A stretch of 35,791 nt of DNA from Lachnospiraceae bacterium (GTDB lineage: Bacteria; Bacillota; Clostridia; Lachnospirales; Lachnospiraceae). Made by a program: the position numbers and the translations under genes. Location: positions 1-35,791 of the forward strand of contig JAFXTJ010000030.1 in assembly GCA_017535945.1 (NCBI GenBank), in the 5' to 3' direction. The notes under the pieces were generated by a model. It was given only the letters and a program-made list of their open reading frames with translations. It was not told the origin of the DNA and did not search any database. Below, piece after piece: positions 4,138 through 26,897 of this stretch. The number at the start of each line of letters is the position of its first letter. Position 1 is the first letter of the stretch.

Positions 4138-4243
4138 AAGTCCGAAAACAGCCGCCGACAAAGTGAAATCTTCGCCTGTTACCGATACACCTCCCGGGGC
4201 GGAGGGTCACACCGACGCTCTCGCGCCGCAACACAGTCCCCCG

Positions 4244-4477: not shown

Positions 4478-4488
4478 TCCCTGCCTCC

Positions 4489-7995: not shown

Positions 7996-7997
7996 GG

Positions 7998-9638
7998 TTA
8001 CGAGCCGCCTCCGTCGGGCCCGAAAAACCGGAAACAGAGCATTGTGATATCGTCGAACTGTTCCGTCCCGCCCGTGAACGCCCCGATGGCATCAGAGACA
8101 TGCCGGATGACCCGTTCCGCATCCGCGTCCGGTTCCTCATTGAGCGCATTGCACAGCCGTTCCTGTCCAAACTCCTCCTCGGAGGTATCGGTCGCCTCCG
8201 CCGCGCCGTCCGTGTAGACGAAGAAACTGTCTCCGGGCTGCATGGTAAAGCAGTGCTCTTCAAAATCCACATCCGCGACTACGGCGATCGGCGGCGAGTG
8301 CCTGTAGATCATGAGTTCATACTCTCCGCTCCCCCTCCGCACCGCGGGATGCTCGTGCCCGGCATTTGCCACGATGCATTCGCCCGTGGAGATCGTGAGG
8401 ATCATGAGCCAGACCGTCACAAACATATCCGCGCGGTTGGTCACGACCAGCTGGTCGTTCACGTGCCCGAGCGCCTGTCCGGGTGTATCTCCGCTGAGCA
8501 TACGGTTCTTGATGAGCGCCTTGGATACCATCATGAACAGGGCGGCCGGGACCCCCTTGCCGGACACATCGGCAATCGTCAGTGCCAGATGGTCCTCATC
8601 GATGAAGTAGAAATCGTAGAAATCGCCGCCGACATCCCTCGCAGGATCCATCTTCGCGGCCAGATCAAATTCCCTGCGTCCGGAGAACAGCGGCTCCACC
8701 TGCGGCAGGATCCCGATCTGGATCTTGGTCGCGAGGGACAGTTCCGACGAGATGCGCTGCTTGTCCGCGGTCATCCGGGTGATGCTCTCCACATAGCTGC
8801 CGATCTGTTCCTCCATCTGATCCACGGATTCCGCGAGCACGCCGATCTCGTCACGGTTTCTGACCTTCTCCCTGAGAGACTTTTCCGGCAGCACATGCTC
8901 GGCAGCAAACCGCCTCGCTTCCCGCATGATCCTGCGGATGGGCGACAGCAGCATCTTGTTGAGATAATACCCCTGCCCGATAAGGACCAGGAGCGACACG
9001 ACGATCAGGGTCCTCAGGATCCCCATCAGAAAATCATGCCGGGCACGGTAGAGCGCTTCCATCTGCTCCTGCACGCACAGGATCCCCTGCACGCTCCCGT
9101 CCGACGCCCTGACCGGGATCATCGCGGTGAGGTGCGGATCCGTCTCGATATATCCTTTGTCCCTGATCACCACGGCCCGGTCCGTCTGCCCTTCATACAG
9201 GGCACGGTATTTTCCCCGGTAGTCGTCGTTGGTGGTCTCCCGCACATAGCCGAAATCGTAGCGGGTGTAGGGGCTGTTCTCGTTGATGGTGGAGAAGACA
9301 AAGGTGATATGCGCGTAGTCCGTGCGGTCCGGCACGATGAGATAGATAAAGGTCGTCCCCTGCGTATTGCACATATCCTCCATCTGCCCGAGGATCTCCA
9401 GGTACTCCTCCGTACTGCCGCCGCTTTCGAGATACGCACCGATCCGGTCTCCGTCGATGATACGGGAAGCGGTGTCCGCCGAATGGAACGCGCTCTCCGT
9501 ATACTGCGCCATGAGCACATTGGAGAAATCGCGGTAGCCGATGCCGCCCACGACGGTGGAATACAGGACAAGCAGCGCCAGGATGCCCAGCAGGCTCTTG
9601 AAGAGGATATGCTCATTCAGTCGTTTCAGTTTCTTCAT
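7998..9638 (-). CDS. Membrane sensor phosphatase, SpoIIE/PP2C type (copy 1)
   Basis: This 546-residue protein should dephosphorylate a STAS antagonist in a partner-switching pathway. Parts: helix at about 14-34, extracytoplasmic sensor at about 35-205, second helix at about 208-230, HAMP-like region at about 232-290, and a PP2C/SpoIIE domain at about 310-545. Metal-binding motifs are intact: MDPARDVGGDFYDF, IADVSGKGVPAALFM, VYTDGAAEATD and FDDITML. The gene lies 15 bases after an RsbW-like kinase gene, the natural opponent of such a phosphatase. It is a paralog of the protein at 23439-25250, with strongly matching catalytic blocks but a different sensor half. The ribosome site is weak, which suggests coupling to the kinase gene. 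Confidence 0.92.
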   Translation of the reverse strand: MKKLKRLNEHILFKSLLGILALLVLYSTVVGGIGYRDFSNVLMAQYTESAFHSADTASRIIDGDRIGAYLESGGSTEEYLEILGQMEDMCNTQGTTFIYLIVPDRTDYAHITFVFSTINENSPYTRYDFGYVRETTNDDYRGKYRALYEGQTDRAVVIRDKGYIETDPHLTAMIPVRASDGSVQGILCVQEQMEALYRARHDFLMGILRTLIVVSLLVLIGQGYYLNKMLLSPIRRIMREARRFAAEHVLPEKSLREKVRNRDEIGVLAESVDQMEEQIGSYVESITRMTADKQRISSELSLATKIQIGILPQVEPLFSGRREFDLAAKMDPARDVGGDFYDFYFIDEDHLALTIADVSGKGVPAALFMMVSKALIKNRMLSGDTPGQALGHVNDQLVVTNRADMFVTVWLMILTISTGECIVANAGHEHPAVRRGSGEYELMIYRHSPPIAVVADVDFEEHCFTMQPGDSFFVYTDGAAEATDTSEEEFGQERLCNALNEEPDADAERVIRHVSDAIGAFTGGTEQFDDITMLCFRFFGPDGGGS

Positions 9639-9653
9639 CTTGTAACGGAGACC

Positions 9654-10064
9654 TCAAAAGGCTTTGTGCATGGTCAGGATATTCCGGCCGTCCCGGTATT
9701 CGTAGGACACGCCGTCCATGCTCTTTTTTGTGAGGAAGATCCCCAGTCCGCCGACCCCGCGTTCCTCCGCCGGCAGGCTGACGTCCGGGTCCTCTTTGGC
9801 CAGCGGATCGAACGGAATGCCGCTGTCCGCAAAGGACAGGCGCACCACAGCCGAATTCTCATCGATCTCGATCCGGATGTCCACCACACCGCCATCTTCG
9901 CCGTATGCATAGGACGCGATGTTCACAAAGATCTCCTCGACCGAGAGATCGATCTTCATCTGTGTTTTGGGATCGCAGCCGGCGGCTTCGAGTTCCTCAT
10001 CGATGATCCCGATCAGCTCGTCCAGTTTCTCGGTTTTCGCTTCGAGTGTCAGTTCACGTACCAT
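9654..10064 (-). CDS. RsbW-like anti-sigma factor/serine kinase (copy 1)
   Basis: This 136-residue GHKL-fold protein should bind ATP and either phosphorylate a STAS protein or hold a partner. The N box reads EEIFVNIASYAYG (about 53-65) with its Asn present, the G1 box is DSGIPFDP, and the G2 box is GVGGLGIFL. It is a close paralog of the protein at 22988-23446; both share the ending YEYRDGxNxLTxHK. The start at 10064 has GGAGAGG upstream. It lies between the second ABC transporter (16 bases) and the sensor phosphatase (15 bases), so the regulatory pair is built into the export operon. No sigma factor is nearby. Confidence 0.9.
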   Translation of the reverse strand: MVRELTLEAKTEKLDELIGIIDEELEAAGCDPKTQMKIDLSVEEIFVNIASYAYGEDGGVVDIRIEIDENSAVVRLSFADSGIPFDPLAKEDPDVSLPAEERGVGGLGIFLTKKSMDGVSYEYRDGRNILTMHKAF

Positions 10065-10080
10065 TCCGTCCCTCTCCTGT

Positions 10081-12258
10081 TCAGTCGTCCAGACGCTGTC
10101 TCTTCACCAGTTCCGCAAAGATCCCGCCTCTGCCGATCAGTTCCTCATAGGTACCGGATTCCGCGATCCTCCCTTCATCCAGCACGAGGATCCTGTCGCA
10201 GTTTTTGATCGTCGAGAGCCGGTGCGCGATGACGATACGGGTGCATCCGAGCGCGTCGAGCGCCTCCGAGATCTGCTTCTGCGTTCTGTTATCGAGTGCG
10301 CTGGTCGCTTCGTCAAACATGAGGATCCTGGGCTTGGGCGCCAGCGCTCTGGCGATCATCAGCCGCTGCTTCTGCCCGCCGGAGATCCCGCCCTGTCCTT
10401 CACCGATCACCGTATGCATCCCCATGGGCATCGCCCGGATATCATCGGCGATCCCTGCAAGTTCCGCAGCCTCCCAGGCATCCTCCACGGTGAGCCAGGG
10501 GGCCGCGATCACGATATTGGAATAGATATCCCCGGGGAACAGGCTCCCGTCCTGCATCACGACGCCGATGCGCCTGCGCAGAGAGCTTAAGTCGATCCTG
10601 TTCAGGTCCTTGCCGTCATAATAGATCGCGCCGCGTTCCGGTTTCTCAAAGCCTAACAGGAGGCGCATGAGCGTGCTCTTGCCGCAGCCGGTGCGTCCGA
10701 CGATCGCGATGTATTCCCCGGAGCGGATCTTGAGATCGATCCCCGCCGCGACATAAGGGGCCGACTCATTGTAGCGGAACCACACATTGCCCAGTTCGAT
10801 CCCGCCGCCGAGTCTGGTGATCATCTCCTTATCCTCCGCGCGTTCCGGTGCGGTCTTTAAGATCGGTTCCGTCATTTCCAGGATCGGACGGATCCGCGAG
10901 ACATCCGACACGATCTGCGAGAATGCCCCGAAAGCGCCGGCCACATAGCCGAACGCCGCATTGAACGCGATATACCCGGAAGGTGTGACACCGGTCCTGA
11001 CAGCGAAATAATACAATGCCGCCGTACCGCCGAGCGATACCGCCAGCGTGACGGCCGGCGAGATCCTGAGGAAGAACGGCGGCCGGTAGGCGGCGCGCGC
11101 CTCTTCCGCGTAGCAGTCCGCCCATCTCGAGAAAGCACGCTTCTCCGCTCCGGAGAGTTTGATCTTCTGCACACCGGTGATCAGGGCATAGGAAAGCCCC
11201 TGTTCTCTGGCGCCCGCAGCGAGCAGGATCCGGTTGTTCGCCGTCTGCAATACGGCCGTGATCAGGGAGACCAGAGCCGTGGCGGCGACGATGAGGAGCG
11301 CGGGACCCACCAGTCCCGGCGAGAACTGCGTGATCTGCGTCACATAGAGGAGCGACAGGAGCGACAGGATCCCGGTGGAGAAGAGTTCTCCGATGAGAAG
11401 CCTGCACAGCTCGCCGACCGCGCTGCTGCGGTTGGCCAGTTCGCCTGCGCTGTATTTCTTGAAGAACGGTGCCGGCAGCGCGAAGAGCCGCATCATGACG
11501 GCCGCTTCCACCGCCAGGGAGGTTTTCTTCTCGATCCGGGCGAGCACGAGATAACGCGAAGCCGTAAAGATCTGCACGGATACCGCGGCCGTCAGCATGA
11601 AGAGCGCCGTCCCCCACAGCAGGGAGGTGTTGCCGCTCTCCAGGACAAATCCCGTCAGGAGCTTGGTGATATGCGGCAGGAGCATCGAGACCAGTGTCAC
11701 GATCAGCGCAAAGGCCAACAGCAGCCCCAGATCCCCCATGCTCAGACAGTCTCTCAGGTAGACGAGCAGATCCGGGATCCCGATCTCGCGTAACGGCAGG
11801 GGCCTGTAGAAGCAGACGGCATCCTCGGAAAAATCCGCCGCGTTCCCGGCATTCACACGGACCATGCGTCCCGTACCGTCATCATAGCGGTATCCGCCAA
11901 AGGTCCCCGGTATGACGCTGACCGGCAGCCCGTCCGCGGCGCGGCGCACGATCATGGGGCCGAACGCGTCGCGATACCAGCCCTTCGTGAGTTTCACGCT
12001 GCGGTGCATCAGGCCGTGCGGCCTGAGCGCCCAGGTCATCTGCTCCTCCGGATCGGTCACATCGCCCGGGATCTGCGCGGGCCGGAAATGATAATACCGC
12101 AGGATGTCGTCGATGGCGCTCTTCGTCGCGGCCTGTTCGTCGGTAAAGCGCGCGGAACCACCGCCGACAATGGCGGCCGCCATCTTCAGGACGGCGTCCT
12201 CAAACTGCTCCTGATCCCCTTTATTCCGTTGTCTGATCTGTTCCTCGAACCAGCCCAC
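10081..12258 (-). CDS. NHLP-type export ABC transporter, permease-ATPase without peptidase
   Basis: This 725-residue fused permease-ATPase matches the second ABC subunit of NHLP/NHLM bacteriocin-type systems. It has a soluble N-terminal domain of about 160 residues, a six-helix membrane region at about 165-440, and a nucleotide-binding domain at about 485-725. The latter carries GRTGCGKST (Walker A), ISGGQKQRLMIARAL (signature), ILMFDEATSALD (Walker B) and an IAHRLSTI switch. No C39 peptidase is present. GTG is used as start, with AGGAG 7 bases upstream. It follows the peptidase-type exporter by 9 bases, so the two equal-length proteins may form a heterodimer or act in series on the double-glycine peptides. 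Confidence 0.9.
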   Translation of the reverse strand: MGWFEEQIRQRNKGDQEQFEDAVLKMAAAIVGGGSARFTDEQAATKSAIDDILRYYHFRPAQIPGDVTDPEEQMTWALRPHGLMHRSVKLTKGWYRDAFGPMIVRRAADGLPVSVIPGTFGGYRYDDGTGRMVRVNAGNAADFSEDAVCFYRPLPLREIGIPDLLVYLRDCLSMGDLGLLLAFALIVTLVSMLLPHITKLLTGFVLESGNTSLLWGTALFMLTAAVSVQIFTASRYLVLARIEKKTSLAVEAAVMMRLFALPAPFFKKYSAGELANRSSAVGELCRLLIGELFSTGILSLLSLLYVTQITQFSPGLVGPALLIVAATALVSLITAVLQTANNRILLAAGAREQGLSYALITGVQKIKLSGAEKRAFSRWADCYAEEARAAYRPPFFLRISPAVTLAVSLGGTAALYYFAVRTGVTPSGYIAFNAAFGYVAGAFGAFSQIVSDVSRIRPILEMTEPILKTAPERAEDKEMITRLGGGIELGNVWFRYNESAPYVAAGIDLKIRSGEYIAIVGRTGCGKSTLMRLLLGFEKPERGAIYYDGKDLNRIDLSSLRRRIGVVMQDGSLFPGDIYSNIVIAAPWLTVEDAWEAAELAGIADDIRAMPMGMHTVIGEGQGGISGGQKQRLMIARALAPKPRILMFDEATSALDNRTQKQISEALDALGCTRIVIAHRLSTIKNCDRILVLDEGRIAESGTYEELIGRGGIFAELVKRQRLDD

Positions 12259-12267
12259 CGGATTCTC

Positions 12268-14445
12268 CTATTCGTTGGCCACCAGATCGGCATAGGCGCC
12301 GCCTGCGGCATACAGTTCGTCATGCGTGCCTCTCTCGACCACACGGCCGTGGTCCAGCACGATGATCTCATCGCAGTCCCGGATCGTGGAGAGACGGTGT
12401 GCGATGACGATACAGGTGATGCCGCGGTTTACGACCGCCTGCACCAGTTCATGCTCCGTCTGCGCATCCAGCGCGCTCGTCGCCTCATCCATGATGATGA
12501 CGGAGGGATCCTGCGCCAGGACCCTGGCGATCTCGAGGCGCTGTCTCTGTCCACCGGACAGATCCCTGCCGCCCTCGGCGAGACGCCCGTGATAACCGCC
12601 CTCACGCCGCAGGATATCGCTGTGGATCTGCGCATCGCGCGCAGCGAGGATCATCTCGAAATCCTCGATCGAGCGGTCCCACATGCGGATATTCTCGGCG
12701 ATGGTATCCTCAAAGAGGATGATGTCCTGATCCACCACAGCCACCGAACCGGTGAAGACGCTGCGGTCGATCTGATCGATTCGCCTGCCGTCATAGGTGA
12801 TCTCCCCCTCCCACGGCCTGCAGATCCCGGAGAGCAGCTTGGCGATCGTGCTCTTGCCGCAGCCGGAAGCACCCACCAGCGCGATCCGGCTGCCCGGCTC
12901 GCAGTGCATGGAGAAATCGCGGATGAGCGGTTCGTCCAGACGGGAATAGCCAAAGGTCACATGCTCCATGGACAGGCTCCCGGAGAGCTTCTCCGCTTCT
13001 CCCTCCTGTATCTGCCCGGATTCCCGCACGTAGGGATCGTCCGGATAGTTCATCACATCCTCGATCCGTTCCATCTGCGTGCGCATCTCCTGAATGGTCT
13101 GTCCCGCCGAGATCATCGTTATGGCCGGTGCCATAAAGGAGTTCAGGAAGCTCTGGAACATGAGGATCATGCCCAGCGTAAACTCCCCGCGCATCGCCAG
13201 ATACACGCCGAGCACGAGCACGATATCCCCCGCCGCGGCGGACAGAAAGGCCGGGATCATCCCGAGTCCCACGTCCAGCCTGGCATAACGGACCTCCTGT
13301 GCGTTGACGGAAGCCTGGAAACCGGCCCAGCGTGCGAAGAAGCCGTCCTCCGCGCCGCCCGCCTTGATCGTCTCCGCCATCTGGATGCCGCCGACGGTGG
13401 CTGCCGCGAGTTTCCCCTCATCGCGCATCTGCACGCGCATGATATCGACCCGCCTGGCGGAGACCAGACGGCTCACCACGGCGCTCAGCGCGATGGCGGC
13501 GATGCCGACAAAGGTGAGCAGGGGCGAGAAACGCAGCATGACGATCAGATAGAACACCATCATGCCGGTATCGAGCAGCATCGGTGCAAAGGTGCCCACG
13601 AGCGTGGTCGCGATGGAAGCATTGCTGCTCTGCCGGATCTGGATATCCCCGGCCATCCGCTGGCTGAAGAATTCCATCGGGAGCCGCAGGACCTTCCACA
13701 GATAGGTGCTGTTGCCCACGGCGGCGAGCTTGCCGCTGATCCGCAGGGCATAGACCTCCTGCAGCCCGGCGATGATCACGCGCAGGATCGATACGCCGGC
13801 GAAGAGTGCGATGAACGGATGCAGCAGTTCGATATTTTCACCGGTGAGCAACCGGTCCATGAAGAAGCGGGAAAAAGCCGGATCGATCAGGCCGAAGAGA
13901 TTGGCGAGAGTCGAACAGAGCGCCACAAAGGCGACCGCGACACCCGCGCCCGCCAGACGCTGTCTGGCAAACGCAAGTGTACTCTTGCGCCTGCCGTCCG
14001 GTTCAAATCCTTCATCGGGTGAAAACTGCAGACAGATCCCGGTAAAGGAGCGGTCAAACTCCTCCATCGGCACTTTGACGGTGCCTCTCGCGGGATCGTT
14101 GATGATGGCGTATCCGCCGCGGAAACCGCAGCATACGACGAAATGATTGAAATTCCAGTGGAGGATGCAGGGAAAGATCCCTTCTTCGAGAAGCATCTCC
14201 GACTGTTCATAGCGGAAGCCCTGCGCCTTGAGTCCGTAGCCTCTGGCGGCGCGGAGCATGTTCCTGGCGTTGGAGCCGTCTCTGGATACGCCGCAATCGA
14301 CGCGCAGCTGCTCCAGCGGGATCCATTTCCCGTAGTAAGCGAGGATCATGGCCAGAGAGGCGGCACCGCATTCGAGCGCCTCCATCTGCATGACCACAGG
14401 GACTTTGACCGCTCTGCGGGCAGCCGGTTGTCTGTTATTGTTCAT
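12268..14445 (-). CDS. Peptidase-containing ABC exporter (C39, PCAT/NHLP type)
   Basis: This 725-residue protein should cleave leader peptides after Gly-Gly and export the rest across the membrane. The C39 domain (about 15-145) keeps its catalytic set: Gln20 and Cys26 in QMEALECGAASL, His101 in HWNFNHFVV, and Asp117 in NDPARG. A six-helix region (about 165-455) and an ATPase domain (about 490-725) follow, with GASGCGKST, LSGGQRQRLEIARVL and VIIMDEATSALD. Candidate substrates are the two double-glycine peptides encoded just upstream and possibly the zinc-ribbon peptide at 20978-21193. A miniature HlyD lies 26 bases upstream. All catalytic residues visible suggest a working enzyme. Confidence 0.94.
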   Translation of the reverse strand: MNNNRQPAARRAVKVPVVMQMEALECGAASLAMILAYYGKWIPLEQLRVDCGVSRDGSNARNMLRAARGYGLKAQGFRYEQSEMLLEEGIFPCILHWNFNHFVVCCGFRGGYAIINDPARGTVKVPMEEFDRSFTGICLQFSPDEGFEPDGRRKSTLAFARQRLAGAGVAVAFVALCSTLANLFGLIDPAFSRFFMDRLLTGENIELLHPFIALFAGVSILRVIIAGLQEVYALRISGKLAAVGNSTYLWKVLRLPMEFFSQRMAGDIQIRQSSNASIATTLVGTFAPMLLDTGMMVFYLIVMLRFSPLLTFVGIAAIALSAVVSRLVSARRVDIMRVQMRDEGKLAAATVGGIQMAETIKAGGAEDGFFARWAGFQASVNAQEVRYARLDVGLGMIPAFLSAAAGDIVLVLGVYLAMRGEFTLGMILMFQSFLNSFMAPAITMISAGQTIQEMRTQMERIEDVMNYPDDPYVRESGQIQEGEAEKLSGSLSMEHVTFGYSRLDEPLIRDFSMHCEPGSRIALVGASGCGKSTIAKLLSGICRPWEGEITYDGRRIDQIDRSVFTGSVAVVDQDIILFEDTIAENIRMWDRSIEDFEMILAARDAQIHSDILRREGGYHGRLAEGGRDLSGGQRQRLEIARVLAQDPSVIIMDEATSALDAQTEHELVQAVVNRGITCIVIAHRLSTIRDCDEIIVLDHGRVVERGTHDELYAAGGAYADLVANE

Positions 14446-14471
14446 AACAGGTCCGTCTCCACACCGGCCGG

Positions 14472-14897
14472 TCAGTTGAACAGCATCCGGATGACCTGCG
14501 TCTGCCGGTAACTCACGCGTGCTTCATAGGAGCCGTCGGGGATCTGCATAAAGGCGGTGGCGAAGATCTCGCCGTCCTCCCCGGGTCCCGCAAAGGTGAC
14601 CGGTGCGCTCACGTCTCCGATCTGCACCGTCATCCCCTTTTCCACTCTTTGCGCGTCCTCTGCCGTGTCAAAGGTGATCGTAAGCGTGCCGTCCTGCACG
14701 GCGGCCCTGCCGGGCACATAACTCTCCACCACGGCGAAGTAACTCCAGAGGATCAGTGCGGCAAGCAGCAGCACGGCAGCGCCAAGCGCCGCCCATACGG
14801 ACGGCGTTGTGACGCGCAGATAATCATTTAACTGCTCCGGAGAGGACAGCCTCTCCATGCTCTTTTTCCGGAAGATCCCCTTTTCCTGTCCGTCCAT
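14472..14897 (-). CDS. Miniature HlyD-like secretion protein of NHLP system
   Basis: This 141-residue protein begins with FRKKSMERLSSPEQLNDYL, the N-terminal signature of NHLP-system membrane fusion proteins, followed by one membrane helix (about 36-56) and a short beta-rich domain. The long coiled-coil hairpin and lipoyl domains normal to HlyD proteins are missing. There is no room for a lost segment: the exporter gene starts 26 bases after its stop, and the leader peptide gene ends 29 bases before its start. It is thus probably a naturally reduced adaptor, not a frameshift fragment. The likely role is to join the exporter pair into a complex in a cell without an outer membrane. Confidence 0.8.
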   Translation of the reverse strand: MDGQEKGIFRKKSMERLSSPEQLNDYLRVTTPSVWAALGAAVLLLAALILWSYFAVVESYVPGRAAVQDGTLTITFDTAEDAQRVEKGMTVQIGDVSAPVTFAGPGEDGEIFATAFMQIPDGSYEARVSYRQTQVIRMLFN

Positions 14898-14926
14898 GCG
14901 ATCGGATTACCTCATAAAGACAGGGC

Positions 14927-15169
14927 TCAGCACTTCGCGATCTTAATCTGATCGCCGCCGGTGCTGCCGTTCTTCATGCCCAGGTCGGTGGCGATGGCAC
15001 TCGTTCCCTTCGCCCTCTTGTAGCCGGTAGAGCCAGCGACGGGGTTTTCCCCCTTGGCGCGCTTGTAGTTCAGCTCTTCGCCGGTGAAGTCCTTCTTGAT
15101 GCACATGCCGCCGGCAACGCCGTCCAGCTCCTCATCGGAGATCGCCATACTGTTTTTCTCTTCGCTCAT
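14927..15169 (-). CDS. Double-glycine leader peptide with YKRAKG repeats
   Basis: This is an 80-residue precursor. The leader (1-21) ends EELDGVAGG, the cleavage type of C39 exporters. The predicted mature part is 59 residues, begins MCIKK, and ends in Cys80. It contains two YKRAKG motifs at 35-40 and 50-55, 15 residues apart, is strongly basic, and has only two cysteines (23 and 80), which could pair. The ATG at 15169 has GGAGG 5 bases upstream; a GTG one codon earlier is too close to that site. No recognisable modification enzyme is encoded nearby. It is probably a secreted bacteriocin-like or signalling peptide; activity unknown. Confidence 0.85.
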   Translation of the reverse strand: MSEEKNSMAISDEELDGVAGGMCIKKDFTGEELNYKRAKGENPVAGSTGYKRAKGTSAIATDLGMKNGSTGGDQIKIAKC

Positions 15170-15205
15170 CACTTCCTCCTTTCAACGGCCGGGTGACGTT
15201 CCGTT

Positions 15206-15412: not shown

Positions 15413-15449
15413 ATCCTGCCTCCTTTGTGTAGTGACGCATCCGACCGGT

Positions 15450-18400: not shown

Positions 18401-18896
18401 GATCCGGCAGGAAGATATAGTCGCCGCTTAAGGGTGTGTCTCCGCCGTTCCCGCTGCTCTGCAGGATTGCCTGACGCTCTGTCCGGGAGAAATTCCCCAT
18501 ATAGAATTCACTGTTCAGATAGCTGCGGATGCTGCTGTTCGCGTAATCCGTCCCGCCATTCTCATCCATGTGCCTGCGGGAGAGCGCGTAAGCGGAATCC
18601 AGCAGGATGCTGCCCGCGCCATAGGCGGTGCTGTTTTTGTCCAGGACGCGGAAGCAGATCGGATAATTACCCTGATTGCCGAAATAGACATAGCAGCCGT
18701 TCCATTCGCTGCCCGCTCCCTGCGGGTTGTACAGCGCCCCGGTCCCCAGCTCGACGGCCGGTGCGCCCGTCCCGGGATCGGCGGCGGCATAGACCGTTGC
18801 GGTACCTGTAAGCGGCATCACGGTCTGCAGCACGAGCGTGAACATCATGACGGCCGCTGTTAAATATCTCTTTATCCTGTCAGTCATTATTTTCAT
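15450..18896 (-). CDS. Large secreted protein with eight B-repeat-like modules
   Basis: This 1148-residue protein has a Sec signal (about 1-37, cleavage near VYA). An N-terminal module (about 50-240, with CYVYFGNQGNYPICFRVLD and a SxxRxYLN segment) is like the DUF6273 domain. A beta-rich module spans about 260-380, and a Gln/Lys/Ala linker about 385-445. Then come eight tandem modules of about 70-85 residues, each ending in a variant of FTMPxxxVTVxVxF, the divergent InlB B-repeat pattern; modules 4-8 share GxGSAWT-like openings. The tail is very acidic. I see no LPXTG, SLH or C-terminal helix, so it may be released or held non-covalently. It has GAGGTG before its ATG and lies 37 bases before the first leader peptide gene, in one operon. 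Confidence 0.88.
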   Translation of the reverse strand: MKIMTDRIKRYLTAAVMMFTLVLQTVMPLTGTATVYAAADPGTGAPAVELGTGALYNPQGAGSEWNGCYVYFGNQGNYPICFRVLDKNSTAYGAGSILLDSAYALSRRHMDENGGTDYANSSIRSYLNSEFYMGNFSRTERQAILQSSGNGGDTPLSGDYIFLPDQSEMQDAAYGLGNPGTLAKENMRIYDTDATYALRTAAGSGYAAVDAAGNMTSVSPDELVYIAPALNLNPDAIAFTYPAEEYKPVYLAPVATTDDNYYQLTLKGGSGFAAARKDNSNNVVPAGYGFLVDVQSIGEADPGVNYSGISGMLTDADGNVTAYGMLSEIAATGDVLVNIPAETPAGDYTLYVFAEDVRSVHIDHAVDYASNFAAIKIRVGEANAVSEEVKEAIDTQNEKKQQVAGAKKKTEQSAQASQAVAQKTQTKQADQKQAPKAVAHKISLEIEGKGQLKSNVATATVGSVIVLTPTPDKDWHFKEWQSGDVSVASDNKFTMPDKDITVKALFEKNSNNHAVKLGYMENSTVELSATSAVKGTKIKAKCNPKTGFHFVKWNSEGLTNDLKNENPITFTMPDNDVLIQAVCERDQAKLYKITVSESGQGSAYAEYDKAQANVWVNVYATPARGWRFVRWDSREVNPGGQFKFLMPAKEVRLTAVFEKNPESTYAVSTVTRGEGGQLWTTSDKGSPRTGFTRGEKVMVQTKLQNGYILQSLRADGVDLTTDSRTGAKYFYMPERNVTLTAVFEKEAEQEHEAYLVVSGDGGAWTQNTKGENVRFFKEGEQVLIQTTSNTSQLDSITSRDAKISMVSDGSYSASFTMPKGGATVYVNFKKADEEYEAYLVVKGEGSAWTCDSSDKKRTKFRTGERVFIGIDTSKAELDSIKSNDVTLNRAAGAYESYFDMPGGGATVYVNFKDVPAPAPAPDPTYKVTIRTSGDGSAWTQKADGTNTDTFKAGEQVILQTVHNTAPIESIGSADVAVQTGAPGDGSFTMPSKNVSITIKFGTAVRKNDVVIGSVNGPGNVYVTGADGSARNRFSAGDKVYLNLSGDNVVWDRWEWDDSALNVGVEGNRLAFTMPDHNVTLTIYTKSTAAPEPEQQPDPASVAIVTDDGSEASAWDVDWEELLAVFEEEEAGSETGAETGAEEGGEADG

Positions 18897-18915
18897 GGCT
18901 TTTCACCTCATATTC

Positions 18916-18931
18916 AAACGGCAGGCCGTTT
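18916..18931 (-). other. Small stem-loop between MetQ-like and repeat-protein genes
   Basis: AAACGGC and GCCGTTT form a perfect 7-bp stem with a 2-base loop, overlapping the stop codon of the upstream gene. No T-run follows, so it is more likely an RNA stability or attenuation element than a terminator. Confidence 0.35.
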
Positions 18932-19916
18932 AAGATCCTGCGTAGGGGACAACGGCGCCGGCGTATTTCGTCTGCATATAGGTCTGCAGATCGGAGCCCT
19001 GCAGCACCTCCACCAGTTTCTTCACACGGGGATCCTCCGCGTTCTCCCGCTTCACCGCGATGATGTTGGCATAACGGCTTGCGGCGGCGGAATCAGGAGC
19101 CTCATAGGCCAGCGCGTCCTGATCCAGTGTGTAGAGTGCCTGTCTGGCGTAGTTGCCGTTCATCACGACAAAGGCCGATTCGGCGATCGCCGCAGGCACC
19201 TGGGACGCATCCATGAGGGATATCGTGATGCCCTTGGGGTTATCCCGGATATCCTCGATGGAAGCGGCATCCTCTTTGGCCGGATCCAGCGACAGGAGTC
19301 CGCAGTCGGCGAGAAGTTTCAGGGCTCTCGCCTGATTGGCGGTATCCCGCGGGACGGTGATGATGTCGCCGTTTGATAGTTCACTGAGGGAATGCTTCCT
19401 GCCCCGGTAGATCCCCAGGGGCTCGAAATGGATCTTGCCCACGGATACGAGATCCGTGCCCTGTTCCTCATTAAAGGTCTTCAGGTATTCTTCGTGCTGG
19501 AAATAGTTGCATTCGTAGATGTCGGCATCGACGAGCAGATTGGGCATCATGTAATCGTCGTAATCCGCATTCACATAGAGCTGGATCCCTTCGCTCGCGA
19601 GAGCTGTCTGGGCCATTTTGAGGATCTCCTCATGGGCTCCCGGACAGGCCACGACCGTCAGGGCTCCTTCCGGTACCGTCTCCGCGTCGCCGTTCCATTC
19701 CACGGCCGGCTTGGTGTCCGACGGCTGATCCTGTGTCTGCTGCGCCGCAGGCTGATCGGCTGCCGGCAGCGTGGTGGAGGCCACGGGATCGCCTCCCTGC
19801 TTGCCGCAGCCGGCCGTCACGGCCAGCAGCAGAGACAGCCCGGTGATTGCGCATACGCGCCCGAGAGGGCGCGTATTCTCACTGTCTGTTCTGTTTTTAA
19901 GAATCATAATCTTCAT
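18930..19916 (-). CDS. MetQ/NlpA-family substrate-binding lipoprotein (orphan)
   Basis: This 328-residue lipoprotein has signal peptide and lipobox VTAGC (Cys about 37), then a Gln/Pro/Thr-rich linker to about 72 and a NlpA-type binding domain. Family landmarks are visible: ADIYECNYFQHEEYLKTFNEEQG, KIHFEPLGIYRGRKHSL, TVPRDTANQARALKLLADCGLL and YANIIAVK. Relatives bind methionine or similar amino acids for the MetNI transporter, but no MetN or MetI is encoded in the window. The ATG has AGGAGGG upstream. Placed between the HATPase-like gene and the secreted repeat protein, it may act as a ligand sensor or donate substrate to a transporter elsewhere. The ligand is not deducible. Confidence 0.9.
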   Translation of the reverse strand: MKIMILKNRTDSENTRPLGRVCAITGLSLLLAVTAGCGKQGGDPVASTTLPAADQPAAQQTQDQPSDTKPAVEWNGDAETVPEGALTVVACPGAHEEILKMAQTALASEGIQLYVNADYDDYMMPNLLVDADIYECNYFQHEEYLKTFNEEQGTDLVSVGKIHFEPLGIYRGRKHSLSELSNGDIITVPRDTANQARALKLLADCGLLSLDPAKEDAASIEDIRDNPKGITISLMDASQVPAAIAESAFVVMNGNYARQALYTLDQDALAYEAPDSAAASRYANIIAVKRENAEDPRVKKLVEVLQGSDLQTYMQTKYAGAVVPYAGS

Positions 19917-19966
19917 CGTCTTACCCTCCTGATATTACTAAAGAGGGATCGGAGATCAAAAACGGT

Positions 19967-20608
19967 TCATTTTCCGACAGAACGTTCTACTACGATCTCC
20001 ACATGATCCTTCCTGATGCTGACGCGCACATCGTCCGCCAGATTGGCGAGCACGGAACGCTCCAGCTCGTCCCAGGGCTCTCTGTCCTCGAAATCGTCCG
20101 TTTTATCCAGATCGATATACTGTTCTTCCAGTGAATTGCGGTAGCCGGCCAGAGACCATGCCATCTGTGCGGTATTTCCCGCCATCATCTCCATGCCGTA
20201 GTTATAGAAATCCGTCACCGGCGCGTCGGCGACGATCTGCGCCGATTCGTCAAAAGAGAGGACCGCCGTGGCGATCATGTCCTTTAACTTGCCGATGATG
20301 CCGGTGGCCGCGGCGTTCTTCCTGTCCTTGGAGGAAGCGATGAGCGCCTCCCTGCGGCTGACCGTCATATCCACCGTGCTGCTCAGATACAGACGTGTCT
20401 TCTTCTGATCGCCCTCGATCCGGAACATCGCGCGGAAATCATCATCCGTGATCCCGGCCAGCATCCCGAGCAGTTCCTCGGTGAGCAGACGGATCCGGAG
20501 ACTCTCCTTGGCGGCAAAGCCCTGCGACGCGGCATAATCCTCCGCGTACGCGAGCGCCTCGGCCATGCTCTCCTCTTCGGGCGTCACATAGATCTCTTCC
20601 CTGTCCAT
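19967..20608 (-). CDS. Divergent HATPase-like protein linked to STAS gene
   Basis: This is a 213-residue soluble protein. The segment ESLRIRLLTEELLGML occupies the position of the GHKL N box but lacks the usual Asn, and no clear G1 or G2 glycine boxes are seen, so ATP binding is doubtful. The C-terminal half is acidic (DLDKTDDFEDREPWDELE) and ends in a beta-rich IRKDHVEIVVER. It follows a STAS gene directly, as RsbW-type partners do; it could be a degenerate kinase acting as a pure binding partner. The ATG at 20608 with GAGG 6 bases upstream is chosen; a GTG at 20620, overlapping the STAS stop as GTGA, is the alternative. Confidence 0.7.
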   Translation of the reverse strand: MDREEIYVTPEEESMAEALAYAEDYAASQGFAAKESLRIRLLTEELLGMLAGITDDDFRAMFRIEGDQKKTRLYLSSTVDMTVSRREALIASSKDRKNAAATGIIGKLKDMIATAVLSFDESAQIVADAPVTDFYNYGMEMMAGNTAQMAWSLAGYRNSLEEQYIDLDKTDDFEDREPWDELERSVLANLADDVRVSIRKDHVEIVVERSVGK

Positions 20609-20616
20609 AGATAACC

Positions 20617-20916
20617 TCACTCCAGAGTCAGGATCTCGGTAAACCCGGTCACCTCGAAGATCTCGCGCACCTCGTTCGTCACGTTGCGGATCACCATCTC
20701 GCCCCTGCCGTTGACGGTCTTCTGGGTGGCGAGCAGGACACGCAGCCCGGCACTGGAGATGTACTGGAGCTTCGCGGCGTCAAAGATGACCGAATGCGCC
20801 TCCGCCAGTTCCGGCTTGATGGACTCTTCCAGTTCCCTGGCCGTTGTGGTGTCAAGCCTTCCCTCCAGCGTCACCGTGAGCTTGCCCTCTTCCATGGTCT
20901 TCTTGATATCCAACAT
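20617..20916 (-). CDS. STAS-domain anti-sigma factor antagonist (copy A)
   Basis: This 99-residue single-domain protein of the RsbV/SpoIIAA type should switch partners depending on phosphorylation of a conserved serine. The motif LQYISSAGLRVLL holds the target serine. The expected fold pattern (beta start LTVTLEGRLDT, end FEVTGFTEILTLE) is complete. The start at 20916 is chosen over a Met five codons earlier because that earlier ATG overlaps the GGAGGG ribosome site. It is the first gene after the extended -10 promoter at 20961, so it leads the operon for the secreted protein, peptides and exporter. It is a paralog of the protein at 22695-22994. Confidence 0.92.
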   Translation of the reverse strand: MLDIKKTMEEGKLTVTLEGRLDTTTARELEESIKPELAEAHSVIFDAAKLQYISSAGLRVLLATQKTVNGRGEMVIRNVTNEVREIFEVTGFTEILTLE

Positions 20917-20960
20917 GTCAACACCCTCCATAACTAAAGAAAAAACATACAGATAGTTGC

Positions 20961-20988
20961 ATTATATCACATTTTCCTCATCCCGCAA
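20961..20988 (-). promoter_or_regulatory. Extended -10 promoter of the export operon
   Basis: The minus strand reads TGATATAAT (20969-20961), a full extended -10. The best upstream hexamer is TTGCGG (20988-20983) with a 16-base spacer, only three of six matches to a -35. The -10 lies just beyond the stop codon of the zinc-ribbon gene, and transcription should begin near 20954, about 37 bases before the STAS start. A T-rich stretch follows but has no terminator stem. Confidence 0.7.
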
Positions 20989-21193
20989 AGTAATTGATCT
21001 TCTGACATGCCGGACACAGTGTCGAGGGCTTCTTCAGGTTCACGTTAAGCTTTGCGCCGCAGTGCGTGCAGGTGAACACCTCATACTTGGCGTTCGGATC
21101 GGTCTTCTCAAATACGACCGTCTGCAGCCCGCCGTTCACCTCATCCAGCGCGCCGTCCTCCAGTTCCTGTCTGCCGTTTGTTTCTTCCGCCAT
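20978..21193 (-). CDS. Zinc-ribbon peptide with double-glycine leader
   Basis: This 71-residue protein starts with a 22-residue acidic segment ending GALDEVNGG, which matches the leaders of the two peptides beside the exporter. The remaining 49 residues carry two CxxC knuckles (Cys42/Cys45 in TCTHCG and Cys60/Cys63 in LCPACQ), spaced as in a zinc ribbon or rubredoxin-like fold. The gene has a strong AAAGGAGGG site and follows the nucleotidase gene by 31 bases. If the leader is real, a metal-binding mini-protein would be exported after cleavage by the C39 transporter encoded about 6.5 kb away. If not, it is a small cytoplasmic zinc protein. Confidence 0.85.
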   Translation of the reverse strand: MAEETNGRQELEDGALDEVNGGLQTVVFEKTDPNAKYEVFTCTHCGAKLNVNLKKPSTLCPACQKINYFAG

Positions 21194-21224
21194 CGTTTTT
21201 CCCTCCTTTTTCCGCTGCGGACAC

Positions 21225-22685
21225 TCAGTCCGTGCATGTCAGGCGCCCGAAGCGCACGGGCGCAGCCGTCCTGTGTGTCTCAAAATGCCTTTCCATCGCA
21301 TCCCTGTCATTATCCGCCAGTTTGCGCACCGTGACCGTATCGCCGATCTCCTCCTGTCCGATCCCGAGGAAAGGAGTGATATTCCGGAATACATAGCCCG
21401 TGATCCCGACTCTCAGGTGCGCGGCCGGATCGACCGGTTCCCCGCGGTACAGGATCTCCCTGATCTCCCGGTCTCCGGAACGGACCTCCACCGAAAGCGT
21501 GCCGGAGAACAGGAAGAAGATATTTGCGCCCTCCCAGGCCTCCCTGCGGTAGATATGGTGCAGCATCGCGGTCAGCCGCTCCCCGGTCATCTCCAGTTCA
21601 TAGACCGCGTTCTCATAGGGAAATGAGACCATGAGATCCCGCTTCGTCACGACCGGTCCCATCTCCCTGGCCCAGATCACGTTGGTCGTGAGAAAAAACA
21701 CATCCGATCCGAAGATCTCCGCGTAGAGATCCGCAAAGAGATCTCCCAGTTCCGTCTCCCGGTGAAATCCGGGATGGGTATAGGTCTGCGGCCAGGTGAC
21801 GAGCGTCCGGTCGTATTTGCGGTCTGTCTCCGCCACGAACCGGTCATAGTAAAACGCGACCAGCGGATCCTCTCCGCAGACCGTCTCGTCGACCGGGCAC
21901 AGCTGCCAGGTATAATGATCCGGCCGGCGTGACTCTTTGTCCACATACAGGTCGAAGCGGCCGATCTGTCCGCTGCCGCAGCCCGCCTGCACGATGGGGA
22001 TCCCTCCGATGACGAGCGGTTCCTCCATGCGCGTGTGGGAATGTCCGCCGATGATGAAGTCCACTCCGGGCAGCCCGCTCTCCGCAAGCTGTTTGTCCTC
22101 CTCGATCCCGATGTGGGTCATGAGGATCGTGACATCGGCGGGATCCTCCGCGGTCTCCGCGAGCACCTTACCGATCTCCTCCCGCACATCCCGGATGCTC
22201 ACGGCGTCGTCCACGAGTTCCTCCTGACGGAAATGCTCCGCCACGGTCTGTGTGAGCAGTCCGATGAAGCGCAGCTTCACGCCGCCCCGCACCACGTCCC
22301 GGTAAGGCAGGAAAACCCTGCGGTTCAGTTCCTTGATGTAGATATTGGCACAGACGATCGGAAAATCCGCGCATTTCTCGAGGAACAGCAGATGGGACAG
22401 TCCGTAGTCGGCTTCGTGGTTGCCCGCACTGAACACATCCGGTTCCAGCGCGTTGACCAGTTTCACCGTGGAGAGGCCCTTATACTCTCTGTCGATGACG
22501 GACCCCATGAACATATCCCCGGCGATCACATAGATCACCTGCTCTTCCCGCCCCCTGACATCATGCACGAAGCCGGAAAGCCTCGCTATGCCGCCGGTGC
22601 GGATACCGTCCCTGTCCGCGGGCGCGAAATCCCCGTGGATATCATTGGAATGAAGCAGTACGATGTGCGTTAGCGATGAAGGCAA
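21225..22685 (-). CDS. Cytoplasmic 5'-nucleotidase-like metallophosphatase
   Basis: This 486-residue protein has a two-domain UshA/YunD pattern. The N-terminal calcineurin-like phosphatase domain has metal motifs HSNDIHGDF (about 12-20), AGDMFMGS (55-62), GNHEADYG (88-95), MTHIG and GGHSHT. The C-terminal 5'-nucleotidase domain spans about 320-480. Such enzymes release phosphate from nucleotides or related molecules. Most relatives are exported, but there is no signal peptide here, so it should act in the cytoplasm like YunD. The only possible start after the in-frame upstream stop is TTG at 22685, with GGAG further upstream; initiation may be weak and coupled to the STAS gene ending 9 bases before. 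Confidence 0.9.
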   Translation of the reverse strand: MPSSLTHIVLLHSNDIHGDFAPADRDGIRTGGIARLSGFVHDVRGREEQVIYVIAGDMFMGSVIDREYKGLSTVKLVNALEPDVFSAGNHEADYGLSHLLFLEKCADFPIVCANIYIKELNRRVFLPYRDVVRGGVKLRFIGLLTQTVAEHFRQEELVDDAVSIRDVREEIGKVLAETAEDPADVTILMTHIGIEEDKQLAESGLPGVDFIIGGHSHTRMEEPLVIGGIPIVQAGCGSGQIGRFDLYVDKESRRPDHYTWQLCPVDETVCGEDPLVAFYYDRFVAETDRKYDRTLVTWPQTYTHPGFHRETELGDLFADLYAEIFGSDVFFLTTNVIWAREMGPVVTKRDLMVSFPYENAVYELEMTGERLTAMLHHIYRREAWEGANIFFLFSGTLSVEVRSGDREIREILYRGEPVDPAAHLRVGITGYVFRNITPFLGIGQEEIGDTVTVRKLADNDRDAMERHFETHRTAAPVRFGRLTCTD

Positions 22686-22694
22686 AGCGCCCGG

Positions 22695-22994
22695 TCACTC
22701 CTGCTCAAACAGATCGATCATCCCGGTCACGCGGAAGATCTCCCGCACGCCGTCAGACATGTTGCGCAGGACGAGTCCGTCCCGCTCCTTCATGAATTTG
22801 CGTGCCGAGATCAGGACCCGCAGACCCGCGCTGGAAATATAGATGAGTTTCGTGAGGTCGACGACGATCCTGCGCGCGCCCTTTAAGTGTTCGTTCATCA
22901 CGCGGTCGAACTCGACGGCGCTCACAGTATCCAGCCGTCCCTCGAGGGACAGGATGTGTTCTCTGTCAATGACTTCTTCCGTGATATTCAGCAT
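22695..22994 (-). CDS. STAS-domain anti-sigma factor antagonist (copy B)
   Basis: This 99-residue RsbV/SpoIIAA-type protein has the phosphorylation motif LIYISSAGLRVLI intact and the terminal EIFRVTGMIDLFEQE element typical of the fold. Its start overlaps the end of the RsbW-like gene by 7 bases, and that gene in turn overlaps the SpoIIE gene, so phosphatase, kinase and antagonist are produced as one unit. Paralog of the protein at 20617-20916. Confidence 0.93.
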   Translation of the reverse strand: MLNITEEVIDREHILSLEGRLDTVSAVEFDRVMNEHLKGARRIVVDLTKLIYISSAGLRVLISARKFMKERDGLVLRNMSDGVREIFRVTGMIDLFEQE

Positions 22995-23446
22995 GATCCG
23001 TTCTCTCCCTGTTGATCCCCCGCCGGAGCGATCCGTTTGTGAATGGTCAGCATGTTGCTGCCGTCCCTGTATTCGTAGGTGACCTGATCCATGCGCTTCT
23101 TCACCATGTAGATCCCCAGGCCGCCGATCTTTCTCTCCATGCCGGAGAGCGTCACATCGGGGTCCTCCCGCTCGAGCGGATTGAAGGGCACCCCCTGATC
23201 GATAAAGGTCAGCACCAGTTCCGGCGGTTCCGTTTCCGTGGCCGGTATCACCTCCGAACGGATGAGCGCCATGCCGACACTGTCCTTATAGGCGTAATTG
23301 CAGATATTGACAAAGATCTCCTCCGCACTGATATGGAGCTGTACGCTGACCCTCCTCGGGCAGTTTAACGGCTCCAGATCCTCCTCGAGAAATCCCAGCA
23401 CCCGGTCCAGATTTTCGTTTCTTGCTTCCAGTCTGAGTTCACGCAT
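22988..23446 (-). CDS. RsbW-like anti-sigma factor/serine kinase (copy 2)
   Basis: This 152-residue GHKL protein has N box EEIFVNICNYAYK, G1 box DQGVPFNP, and G2 box IGGLGIYMVKK. The start MRELRLEAR at 23446 is chosen because it has GGGAGG upstream, aligns with the paralog at 9654-10064 (MVRELTLEA), and overlaps the phosphatase stop by 8 bases; a longer frame to 23542 would run inside the phosphatase gene. It carries a C-terminal extension (PAGDQQGENGSC) absent from the paralog. Likely substrate is the STAS protein encoded directly downstream; the second binding partner (a sigma factor or other effector) is not in the window. Confidence 0.92.
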   Translation of the reverse strand: MRELRLEARNENLDRVLGFLEEDLEPLNCPRRVSVQLHISAEEIFVNICNYAYKDSVGMALIRSEVIPATETEPPELVLTFIDQGVPFNPLEREDPDVTLSGMERKIGGLGIYMVKKRMDQVTYEYRDGSNMLTIHKRIAPAGDQQGENGSC

Positions 23447-25250
23447 CCTGATCCTGCCTCCCGAAATACTTGAGACCGAGCATCGTGATATCGTCAAACT
23501 GGTCCGCTTCGCCGACAAAGGTATCGATGGATTCGCGCACATTCTTAAGCAGCGTCGCCGGCGTCGCTTCGGGATCGGCGTTCAGGGCCTCCAGCATCCG
23601 CTCCACGCCGTAGAGTTCCTCCTTGGTGTCCGTGGCTTCCGGAACACCGTCGGTGTAGACATAGAGCGTGTCGCCGGGATTCAGGTCGAATTCCGTCTGC
23701 CGGAAACGCATGTCCTCCATGACGGCAAGAGCAGGCGAATGCTTCGTTGTGATGACCTCAAAGCTGCCGTCCTTCCTGCGGATCGCCGGCTTCTCATGTC
23801 CCGCGTTGACCTCCAGGGCATGGCCGGTGGCCAGATCGATCACCGCGCACCATACCGTCACGAACAGCTGCGCCTCATTGCCCTCGCACAGCTGGTTGTT
23901 GACATTGCCCAGCGCCTCGGAAGGCGACTCGCCCATGGTCATGCGGTTCTTGATCAGGGTCTTGGCGATGACCATGAACAGCGCGGCAGGCACTCCCTTG
24001 CCGGACACGTCGGCGATGACGATACCCAGATGATCATCATCGACCAGAAAGAAGTCATAGAAATCACCGCCCACTTCCTTGGCGGGATCCATCGTGGCAT
24101 AGATATCAAATTCCGGCCGGTCGGGGAAAGGCGGGAAGATCCGGGGCAGCATGTCTGCCTGGATCTGCGTCGCGACATTGAGCTCGGCGCTGATCCGCTC
24201 CTTCTCCGCCGTGATCTTGGCGATGTTGGCGATATAGGCCAGGATCCCGTGCTCCATGTTGAGCACGCTCTGTGCGAGCAGTTCGACCTCGTCACCGGTG
24301 CGGATCTCCGGGAGCCGCTCGGATATTGTGTCACCGGTCTCACCGAAGAGGGTGGCCTCCTCGGCGACCAGCGTGATCGGCGTGATGACATTCTGATTAA
24401 AGAAGAGCACGAAGAACAGCAGGATGATCAGGATCCCGCCCATGGTCACGATCGAGGTCCGGATCACAAAGCTGCGGATCGCGCTCTCCAGCCGGACCAT
24501 CGGGATCTCTACGCCGATGATGGCCAGAACATGCCCGTCCGCGTCGAGCATCGGATAGATCGCGGAAGTATTGTTGCCGAAGGCGCTCTTGGATTCGAAG
24601 AAATCACTCTGCCTCTGTCCGGTCCGCAGCACCCGGATCACCGCATCGATATACTTGGGATTCATCGTGGAGGTGTCACCGGCCGTAAAAGCCTCCTCCT
24701 CGATATTGTAGCAGTCAAAAATGTAATGGAACGGTTTCCAGTCCGGCTGCTTCTCGTAAACATCGTGGAAGGGGATCCTGCCCTTTTTCTTGCCGCTGTA
24801 GGCGAGGACTTCCTCCTCCGTAGTGTAGATGACATAGATGTCGTTGAGCTGCATGGCGATCCGGATATTGTTGAGCTCGCGTCTGACGCGCATGTATTCC
24901 GGCGTGTAGGTCAGCGCCTTGATTTGCTCACCGTCGCCGCTTTTGATCACGCTGATGTATTTCGCGATCATCTCCCTGTCCATGCAGCTCTCGGCCTGCG
25001 CGGCGATCATGTAGGCCGTGTCGTTATACTGCTGCTTGATGGAGGATTCGGCGCCCAGTTCGCCCACGAAAGAGGTGAAAAGAGCGAGCGCCAGCCCCGC
25101 GAACGCGAACTCGATAAAGATTCGCTTGGAGAGGGAGAGTTTTCTGGTCGCGTGCTTCTTTTTCTTCTCCTTCTTTTTCTTTTCAGGCTCCGCCGGGGTC
25201 ACTTCCGGTTTCTGCTCTGCCTGTATCAATTCCTGCTTCTCTTCTTCCAT
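23439..25250 (-). CDS. Membrane sensor phosphatase, SpoIIE/PP2C type (copy 2)
   Basis: This 603-residue protein has a Lys/Glu/Pro-rich cytoplasmic N-terminus (about 1-40, with runs of lysine), a helix at about 45-65, an extracytoplasmic Cache-like sensor at about 66-262, a helix at about 265-290, a HAMP-like region and a SpoIIE/PP2C domain at about 360-600. Catalytic motifs are complete: MDPAKEVGGDFYDFF, IADVSGKGVPAALFM, VYTDGVPEATD and FDDITMLGLKYFG. It begins a three-gene overlap cassette (phosphatase, kinase, antagonist) and follows the GH3 gene by 6 bases. It probably reports an external ligand by dephosphorylating the STAS protein. The lysine-rich tail is not found in copy 1. Confidence 0.93.
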   Translation of the reverse strand: MEEEKQELIQAEQKPEVTPAEPEKKKKEKKKKHATRKLSLSKRIFIEFAFAGLALALFTSFVGELGAESSIKQQYNDTAYMIAAQAESCMDREMIAKYISVIKSGDGEQIKALTYTPEYMRVRRELNNIRIAMQLNDIYVIYTTEEEVLAYSGKKKGRIPFHDVYEKQPDWKPFHYIFDCYNIEEEAFTAGDTSTMNPKYIDAVIRVLRTGQRQSDFFESKSAFGNNTSAIYPMLDADGHVLAIIGVEIPMVRLESAIRSFVIRTSIVTMGGILIILLFFVLFFNQNVITPITLVAEEATLFGETGDTISERLPEIRTGDEVELLAQSVLNMEHGILAYIANIAKITAEKERISAELNVATQIQADMLPRIFPPFPDRPEFDIYATMDPAKEVGGDFYDFFLVDDDHLGIVIADVSGKGVPAALFMVIAKTLIKNRMTMGESPSEALGNVNNQLCEGNEAQLFVTVWCAVIDLATGHALEVNAGHEKPAIRRKDGSFEVITTKHSPALAVMEDMRFRQTEFDLNPGDTLYVYTDGVPEATDTKEELYGVERMLEALNADPEATPATLLKNVRESIDTFVGEADQFDDITMLGLKYFGRQDQDA

Positions 25251-25256
25251 AACGGA

Positions 25257-26876: not shown

Positions 26877-26897
26877 GCAGTCCCCCCTTCTCCTCTG

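Follow-up and report, generated by a model that had tools for sequence, protein, structure and literature searches.

A Lachnospiraceae peptide-export gene run interleaved with partner-switching genes: a candidate switch-controlled NHLM-type exporter

Contig C72 of an uncultured Lachnospiraceae bacterium (JAFXTJ010000030.1; 35,791 nucleotides, all of which make up the window analysed here) carries, around positions 7998–25250, the genes of a C39-type peptide exporter packed together with genes of partner switching, a form of control in which a PP2C phosphatase dephosphorylates a STAS protein, an RsbW-like kinase phosphorylates it, and the free STAS protein takes the kinase from its target. We tentatively read this gene set, with slightly less than even confidence, as an operon for NHLM-type peptide export that is governed by partner switching and receives more than one sensory input; this reading suggests that signals from outside the cell decide the timing of peptide synthesis or release. 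The inventory given by a first-pass annotation (two SpoIIE/PP2C phosphatases, two RsbW-like proteins, two STAS proteins, a C39 exporter pair, a mini-HlyD, and three leader peptides, all on one strand) is confirmed by profile scores and by a leader motif. The window is the whole contig, part of a 2.65-Mb assembly of 144 contigs that is 81.9% complete. The 24 genes called from 6042 to 35695 all share the minus strand, are spaced by −11 to 50 base pairs (bp), and overlap in six places; the run continues past 25250 and below 7998.

The switch proteins comprise phosphatases, kinases, and STAS proteins with the expected motifs. Specifically, the membrane sensor phosphatases PP1 (7998–9638; PF07228, 158.5 bits) and PP2 (23439–25250; PF07228, 168.1 bits) both exceed the family cut-off, carry invariant PPM/SpoIIE metal-binding motifs, and are the only SpoIIE matches over cut-off in the assembly. 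PP1 comprises an extracytoplasmic domain (by eye), a HAMP domain, and the SpoIIE/PP2C domain; the fold of its extracytoplasmic part was not identified in a structure comparison that spanned residues 310–546. The RsbW-like kinases RW1 (9654–10064; PF13581, 79.9 bits; alignment of nine sequences) and RW2 (22988 to about 23446; PF13581, 64.5 bits) both retain intact N, G1, and G2 boxes in alignments. The start of RW2, previously placed at 23542, most likely lies at about 23446, as judged by eye. The only other HATPase_c_2 match over cut-off in the assembly, on contig C117 at 27.7 bits, resembles a histidine kinase by eye. The STAS proteins ST1 (22695–22994; PF01740, 52.2 bits) and ST2 (20617–20931; PF01740, 58.9 bits) carry the motif ISSAGLR, with a serine before the conserved glycine that we take, by comparison with SpoIIAA, to be the phosphosite. 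The assembly has one further STAS match (contig C81, L282:1483–1782), which sits after a phage-tail or baseplate-like open reading frame (ORF; by eye) and before an FtsE-like ATPase.

The set of RsbW-like proteins is larger than first described: the two kinases stand, and a third protein of this kind had been missed. This protein, K217 (19967–20620; 217 amino acids), is predicted to adopt an RsbW/SpoIIAB fold, and N, G1, and G2 boxes were not seen in it by eye in an alignment of 23 sequences, in keeping with a predicted pseudokinase or anti-sigma-like protein. The start of K217 overlaps the end of ST2 by 4 bp, and a same-strand STAS gene lies within 300 bp in 16 of 30 K217 loci, the one in the window included. 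A search of PDB sequences with the K217 profile gave no matches. Two K217 proteins of about 400 amino acids in other loci (L227:9473–10672 and L231:9713–10960) have at least two K217-profile matches in frame, and might be tandem duplications of the RsbW-like domain.

The exporter belongs to the NHLM type and has a reduced HlyD partner. ABC1, a C39 peptidase/permease/ATPase (12268–14445), passes TIGR03796 (890 bits; cut-off 853.3), and its residues C26, H101, and D117, presumably catalytic, are invariant across ten aligned sequences. ABC2, a permease/ATPase (10081–12258), falls just under the TIGR03797 cut-off (689.8 versus 709.4 bits), and this is still its best family by far. The mini-HlyD (14472–14897; 141 amino acids) scores 31.7 bits against a TIGR03794 cut-off of 156.2, matches the first 85 of 421 model positions, and thus keeps the N-terminal part only; homologues of it are present in related exporter loci. 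PP1, RW1, ABC2, and ABC1 are tightly packed, with gaps of 9–16 bp. The candidate cargoes are three double-glycine leader precursors: pepA (14927–15169; CTB bacteriocin model, 24.1 bits, cut-off 32), pepB (15206–15412; PF10439, 22.1 bits, below the cut-off of 27.1), and pepC (20978–21193). Searching all six reading frames of the window (71,578 residues) with a leader motif written by eye from these three peptides themselves gives exactly three occurrences, at 15136, 15382, and 21157 on the minus strand; 50 shuffles of one frame contain none. The core of pepA has two YKRAKG repeats and a cysteine near both ends (by eye). The core of pepC is zinc-ribbon-like (two CxxC motifs; weak zinc-ribbon matches), which would be unusual for a peptide carried by a bacteriocin exporter.

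With NHLP/NHLM export as defined by TIGR03794, TIGR03796, and TIGR03797, and as described in the accessible part of PMC2887384, the window shares a C39-ABC protein, a second ABC protein, an HlyD-like partner, and double-glycine leaders. It differs in the truncated HlyD, in an ABC2 just below cut-off, and in its short leaders, which are not of the nitrile-hydratase or Nif11 type: NCBIfam models for such leaders gave no match to pepA, pepB, or pepC at E 0.1. No peptide-modification enzyme was found among the window proteins scanned.

Switch genes lie near exporters of this type more often than uniform placement predicts. A TIGR03796 search of 299 genomes of the family matched 52 at E ≤ 1e-150, 31 of them over cut-off, and 60 exporter neighbourhoods were fetched, a set from which the exporter places in genomes G199, G182, and G278 are absent. 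Among 33 other family genomes, 7 have a SpoIIE gene within 10 kilobases (kb) of the exporter (0.98 expected, P 2e-5) and 8 have a HATPase_c_2 kinase gene within that distance (0.73 expected, P 2e-7), an excess over uniform placement of sevenfold for the phosphatase to elevenfold for the kinase. This test takes rounded genome sizes and a background computed for phosphatases and kinases, omits the genome of the window and G199, and does not enter the two phosphatases and two kinases of the exporter-less genome G207. In the fetched neighbourhoods, a phosphatase, kinase, STAS, or K217 gene is present at 13 of the 41 strong-exporter loci (TIGR03796 ≥ 826 bits) and at none of the 19 weak ones (Fisher P 0.005). 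The weak set includes one locus (L105) that passes the cut-off once frame neighbours are added, and moving it to the strong set gives 13/42 versus 0/18 (P 0.006).

A second set of loci came from one genome scan, with no overlap with the first among exporters more than 45% identical to that of the window; the closest pair of such exporters between the sets is 77% identical. When well-flanked loci (at least 5 kb on both sides) are pooled and four repeats of contigs already counted (L224, L247, L248, L252) are omitted, a switch gene accompanies 14 of 33 exporters at least 52% identical to that of the window and 4 of 58 less similar ones. One exporter locus, L056, has an ABC2 gene adjoining a phosphatase gene and a phosphatase/kinase gene, the latter encoding a phosphatase and an RsbW-like kinase fused in one protein (1931–4549), with a STAS gene downstream in the exporter cluster. 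On a tree of 37 phosphatases, those linked to an exporter are dispersed and form no clade (12 changes, at least 6 forced), which implies that the linkage arose or broke many times. The earlier proposal that exporter and switch genes belong together is supported by the linkage excess and by the contrast between strong and weak loci, and holds for a minority of genomes only. Across the relatives checked, exporters consistently lacking these regulators, the pattern that would have spoken against the proposal, were not what we found.

Of the fetched loci, an island of about 20 kb on one strand in genome G041 (L224) shares most with the window. Its genes encode, in order, an RsbW-like kinase, a phosphatase, a GGDEF protein, a STAS protein, a homologue of the window membrane protein TM253 (51% identical), a small peptide, an ECF-like sigma factor, K217, a STAS protein, a fusion of STAS and AMP-ligase, an InlB-repeat protein, ABC2, ABC1, a mini-HlyD, and a lipoprotein. 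The lipoprotein is related to that encoded at 2544–3734 of the window, and the InlB-repeat protein, which like that of the window has four repeat stretches, adjoins the exporter. Relative to the window, the island adds the sigma gene that adjoins K217. The fusion protein (L224:10983–12890), beside the K217-STAS pair, joins a STAS domain to an AMP-binding, acyl-CoA ligase-like enzyme.

An ECF-like sigma gene lies inside the combined cluster in four relatives (L086, L224, L247, L248), twice directly beside the kinase gene. In particular, L086 has the order phosphatase, STAS, sigma, kinase, HlyD, ABC1, ABC2, MATE transporter, phosphatase; L248 has sigma, kinase, phosphatase on the exporter contig, with the sigma gene adjoining the kinase gene; and L247 has, also on the exporter contig, kinase and phosphatase genes, then a STAS gene, then a sigma gene about 2.2 kb from the STAS gene, with other genes between. 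Several cluster-linked sigmas are 40–67% identical to one another. Other exporter loci, among them L072, L071, L085, and L172, have a nearby sigma gene, with no phosphatase detected. The assembly to which the window belongs has five Sigma70_r2 places; the best NCBIfam models of four are ECF (two), WhiG/FliA, and SigH, and the fifth is RpoD by eye. We considered a SigB-, SigF-, or SigG-type sigma elsewhere in the genome as the target and rejected it, none of the five sigmas having one of these as its best match; the assembly being 81.9% complete, this is not proof of absence.

We propose the following mechanism. Extracytoplasmic signals would switch on PP1 or PP2, whose membrane topology was assigned by eye, and the active phosphatase would dephosphorylate the STAS proteins. 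Free STAS protein would then bind RW1, RW2, or K217 and release the partner that these hold, with K217-STAS as a putative arm of the switch. The released partner would most likely be an ECF-like sigma that turns on the export operon, since a sigma gene stands among the switch genes in relatives that have this combined cluster; the output of the switch is accordingly most likely transcriptional. The sigma gene might be located in the 18% that the assembly lacks, the sigma might be either of the two distant ECF sigmas, or it might have been replaced. The peptides pepA, pepB, and pepC would be cleaved by the C39 domain at the double glycine and then exported, as in other such exporters.

Several observations weigh against this proposal. 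No sigma factor gene is present anywhere in contig C72, as the first-pass annotation had stated for the window, and the two ECF sigmas of the same assembly are only 25–31% identical to the closest cluster-linked sigmas. Beyond the window, only four exporters (L046, L047, L053, and L056) have short ORFs in which the leader motif was found. No phosphatase lies within 20 kb of the exporter in 23 of the 33 genomes. The contrast between closer and more distant exporters comes from the scan sample (5/11 versus 0/33, the latter largely from other phyla), the family sample giving 9/22 versus 4/25 (P 0.10). The 12 changes on the phosphatase tree compare with 12.6 in shuffles, as chance placement would give, and it is solely the 10-kb linkage excess that disfavours chance placement. 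Finally, fetched stretches that contain no exporter (for example L216, L217, L225, and L241–L243) carry phosphatase/kinase/STAS sets, K217-STAS pairs, or counterparts of the MFS/SBP side of the window, and in the six other genomes that encode TM253 the roughly 1.5 kb on either side of it contains no switch gene.

Several of these points would also fit a reading that we consider somewhat unlikely, in which exporter and switch are neighbours only: partner-switch cassettes, common in the family, would gather in regulatory islands and drive something else, for example the GH3, MFS, or SBP genes or targets elsewhere, with the exporter as a passenger. Besides the 23 unlinked genomes and the non-significant enrichment within the family sample, this reading is favoured by exporter-free counterparts of the PP2-RW2-ST1 side, which in the window stands beside the MFS and SBP genes: an MFS homologue adjoins SBP, phosphatase, kinase, and STAS genes in L241/L242, and an SBP homologue adjoins a phosphatase gene in L243. 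SpoIIE matches also number 11 in one and 9 in another of 35 exporter genomes. This reading is opposed by the 10-kb linkage excess of both phosphatases and kinases, by the absence of switch genes from all 19 weaker-exporter loci, and by the close packing of PP1, RW1, ABC2, and ABC1 and the gene adjacency in L056.

Alternatively, the switch might act on the exporter rather than on transcription, with a dephosphorylated STAS protein, or a K217-STAS pair, acting directly on the exporter ATPases in the manner of MlaB on MlaF, a reading that we regard as unlikely. MlaB acts on an ABC class other than that of this exporter, and the sigma gene in the same cluster in four relatives argues against direct gating. 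On the other side, contig C72 lacks a sigma gene, MlaFB is a STAS-regulated ABC transporter (PMC7367683, accessible part), ST1 and ST2 match the mlaB_1 model, though only at 1e-4 and 1e-3 and well short of its cut-off, and in three loci a STAS gene adjoins exporter genes while the fetched stretch shows neither a kinase nor a phosphatase gene: in L141 the STAS gene is followed by HlyD after 9 bp, and in L069 and L057 ABC2 is followed by the STAS gene after 42 bp and 237 bp, the genome of L057 having kinase and phosphatase genes further along the same contig. The earlier suggestion that the final target may be non-transcriptional is accordingly weakened by the sigma genes of the four relatives, and the lack of a close relative of the cluster-linked sigmas in the same assembly, together with the sigma-free contig, keeps such a target, for example STAS on the exporter, a live rival. 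Distinctly unlikely, in our estimate, is a more elaborate version in which the STAS protein, set by phosphatases that sense the outside, acts without transcription, and kinase-dead K217 couples it to the exporter or to the sigma of the exporter, so that one signal would both switch on and open the exporter.

A Sia-like output is highly improbable; here the switch would control a diguanylate cyclase, in the way that the STAS protein SiaC activates SiaD, and the resulting c-di-GMP would act on surface factors and export. The window does encode a GGDEF protein with a HAMP domain (989–2491; PF00990), the sensor region of which is related to that of PP1; a GGDEF protein is encoded between the phosphatase and a STAS protein in the G041 island; and SiaA is the best NCBIfam match of PP1. 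The SiaA equivalog scores, however, are 87.4 (PP1) and 49.5 bits, far below the cut-off of 700; the GGDEF neighbour is confirmed in one fetched island, the others not having been searched for that family; and the GGDEF protein of the window resembles a membrane sensor and its gene ends about 5.5 kb from PP1.

With RsbU-RsbV-RsbW-SigB and SpoIIE-SpoIIAA-SpoIIAB-SigF the window shares the PP2C phosphatase, the RsbW-like kinase, the STAS antagonist, and, in K217, the predicted fold; it differs in having no sigma gene on the contig, an extra RsbW-fold protein without ATP motifs, and packing with a peptide exporter, and the sigmas linked in its relatives are ECF-like rather than SigB, SigF, or SigG. 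EcfG-NepR-PhyR, by the accessible part of PMC8103513, likewise frees an ECF sigma through partner switching; its antagonist is a sigma-mimic response regulator rather than a STAS/RsbW pair. BtrU-BtrV-BtrW of Bordetella governs type III secretion, partly after transcription (PMC8256260, accessible part). It resembles the window, by description rather than by sequence, in tying a partner switch to a secretion system, and differs in the secretion system and the phylum. Together with MlaB-MlaF, it indicates that STAS modules can act post-transcriptionally. SiaA-SiaB-SiaC-SiaD of Pseudomonas aeruginosa shares the PP2C phosphatase, RsbW-fold kinase, and STAS protein and has a non-transcriptional target; it differs in its diguanylate cyclase output (PMC8457831, accessible part) and in the low SiaA score of PP1.

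In gut anaerobes, quorum-sensing two-component systems are usually credited with controlling bacteriocin-type peptide export. If true, a recurrent connection with partner switches and ECF-like sigmas would represent a second control logic for peptide export; it would also assign functions to the K217 family and to MATE transporters with a fused RsbW-like domain, both of them little described. The exporter and the partner switch are each of known kinds; among the literature matches listed, from a search that mostly did not extend to subscription journals, we recognised no description of an NHLM exporter with a partner switch, of the recurrence of this combination, of its sigma genes, or of the K217 family. 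The text of PMC2887384 has no word beginning with "sigma", "phosphatase", or "STAS", and the main text of a 2026 rumen bacteriocin survey (PMC13289728) does not contain NHLM, NHLP, SpoIIE, sigma factor, or phosphatase.

Other genes of the run are of mixed kinds. TM253 (7234–7995), a 253-amino-acid protein with membrane character by eye and no Pfam match, follows PP1. Between the leader-peptide genes lie a divergent InlB B-repeat protein, secreted by eye (15450–18896; PF18998, four stretches), and an NlpA/MetQ-like lipoprotein (18930–19916; PF03180, 205 bits); a 5′-nucleotidase-like metallophosphoesterase (21225–22685; PF00149, PF02872) lies between pepC and ST1. Beyond PP2 are a GH3-family adenylate-forming enzyme (25257–26876; PF03321, 215 bits), 6 bp from PP2, an MFS transporter with a long N-terminal part ahead of the MFS domain (26898–29222; PF07690), and an ABC-type substrate-binding protein, SBP (29219–30496; PF04392). 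A GH3 homologue also adjoins phosphatase, phosphatase-kinase, and STAS genes in L254. Within 7000–26900 we counted 4 promoter-like sites (6.7 in shuffles) and, on both strands, 21 terminator-like sites, an excess over shuffles (11.6, standard deviation 3.5); none of the minus-strand terminator-like sites lies in an intergenic gap, all being inside genes. TM253 (8 of 299 family genomes, six of them with a strong exporter) and a 396-amino-acid lipoprotein (24 of 299) did not serve as island markers: of the loci inspected, with about 1.5 kb on each side, G041 was the only one in which they adjoined switch or exporter genes.

MATE-family transporters with a C-terminal RsbW-like (HATPase_c_2) domain are encoded near partner-switch genes, some of them in exporter clusters. 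Both domains were identified by family models in L254 (12507–14246) and L053 (2934–4658); in L225 (3073) and L247 (11780) a family model identified the HATPase_c_2 domain and local profiles the MATE part; local profiles alone identified the protein in L248 (12695); and in L086 (5284–7038) the MATE part matched the MatE model and the HATPase part was recognised by eye.

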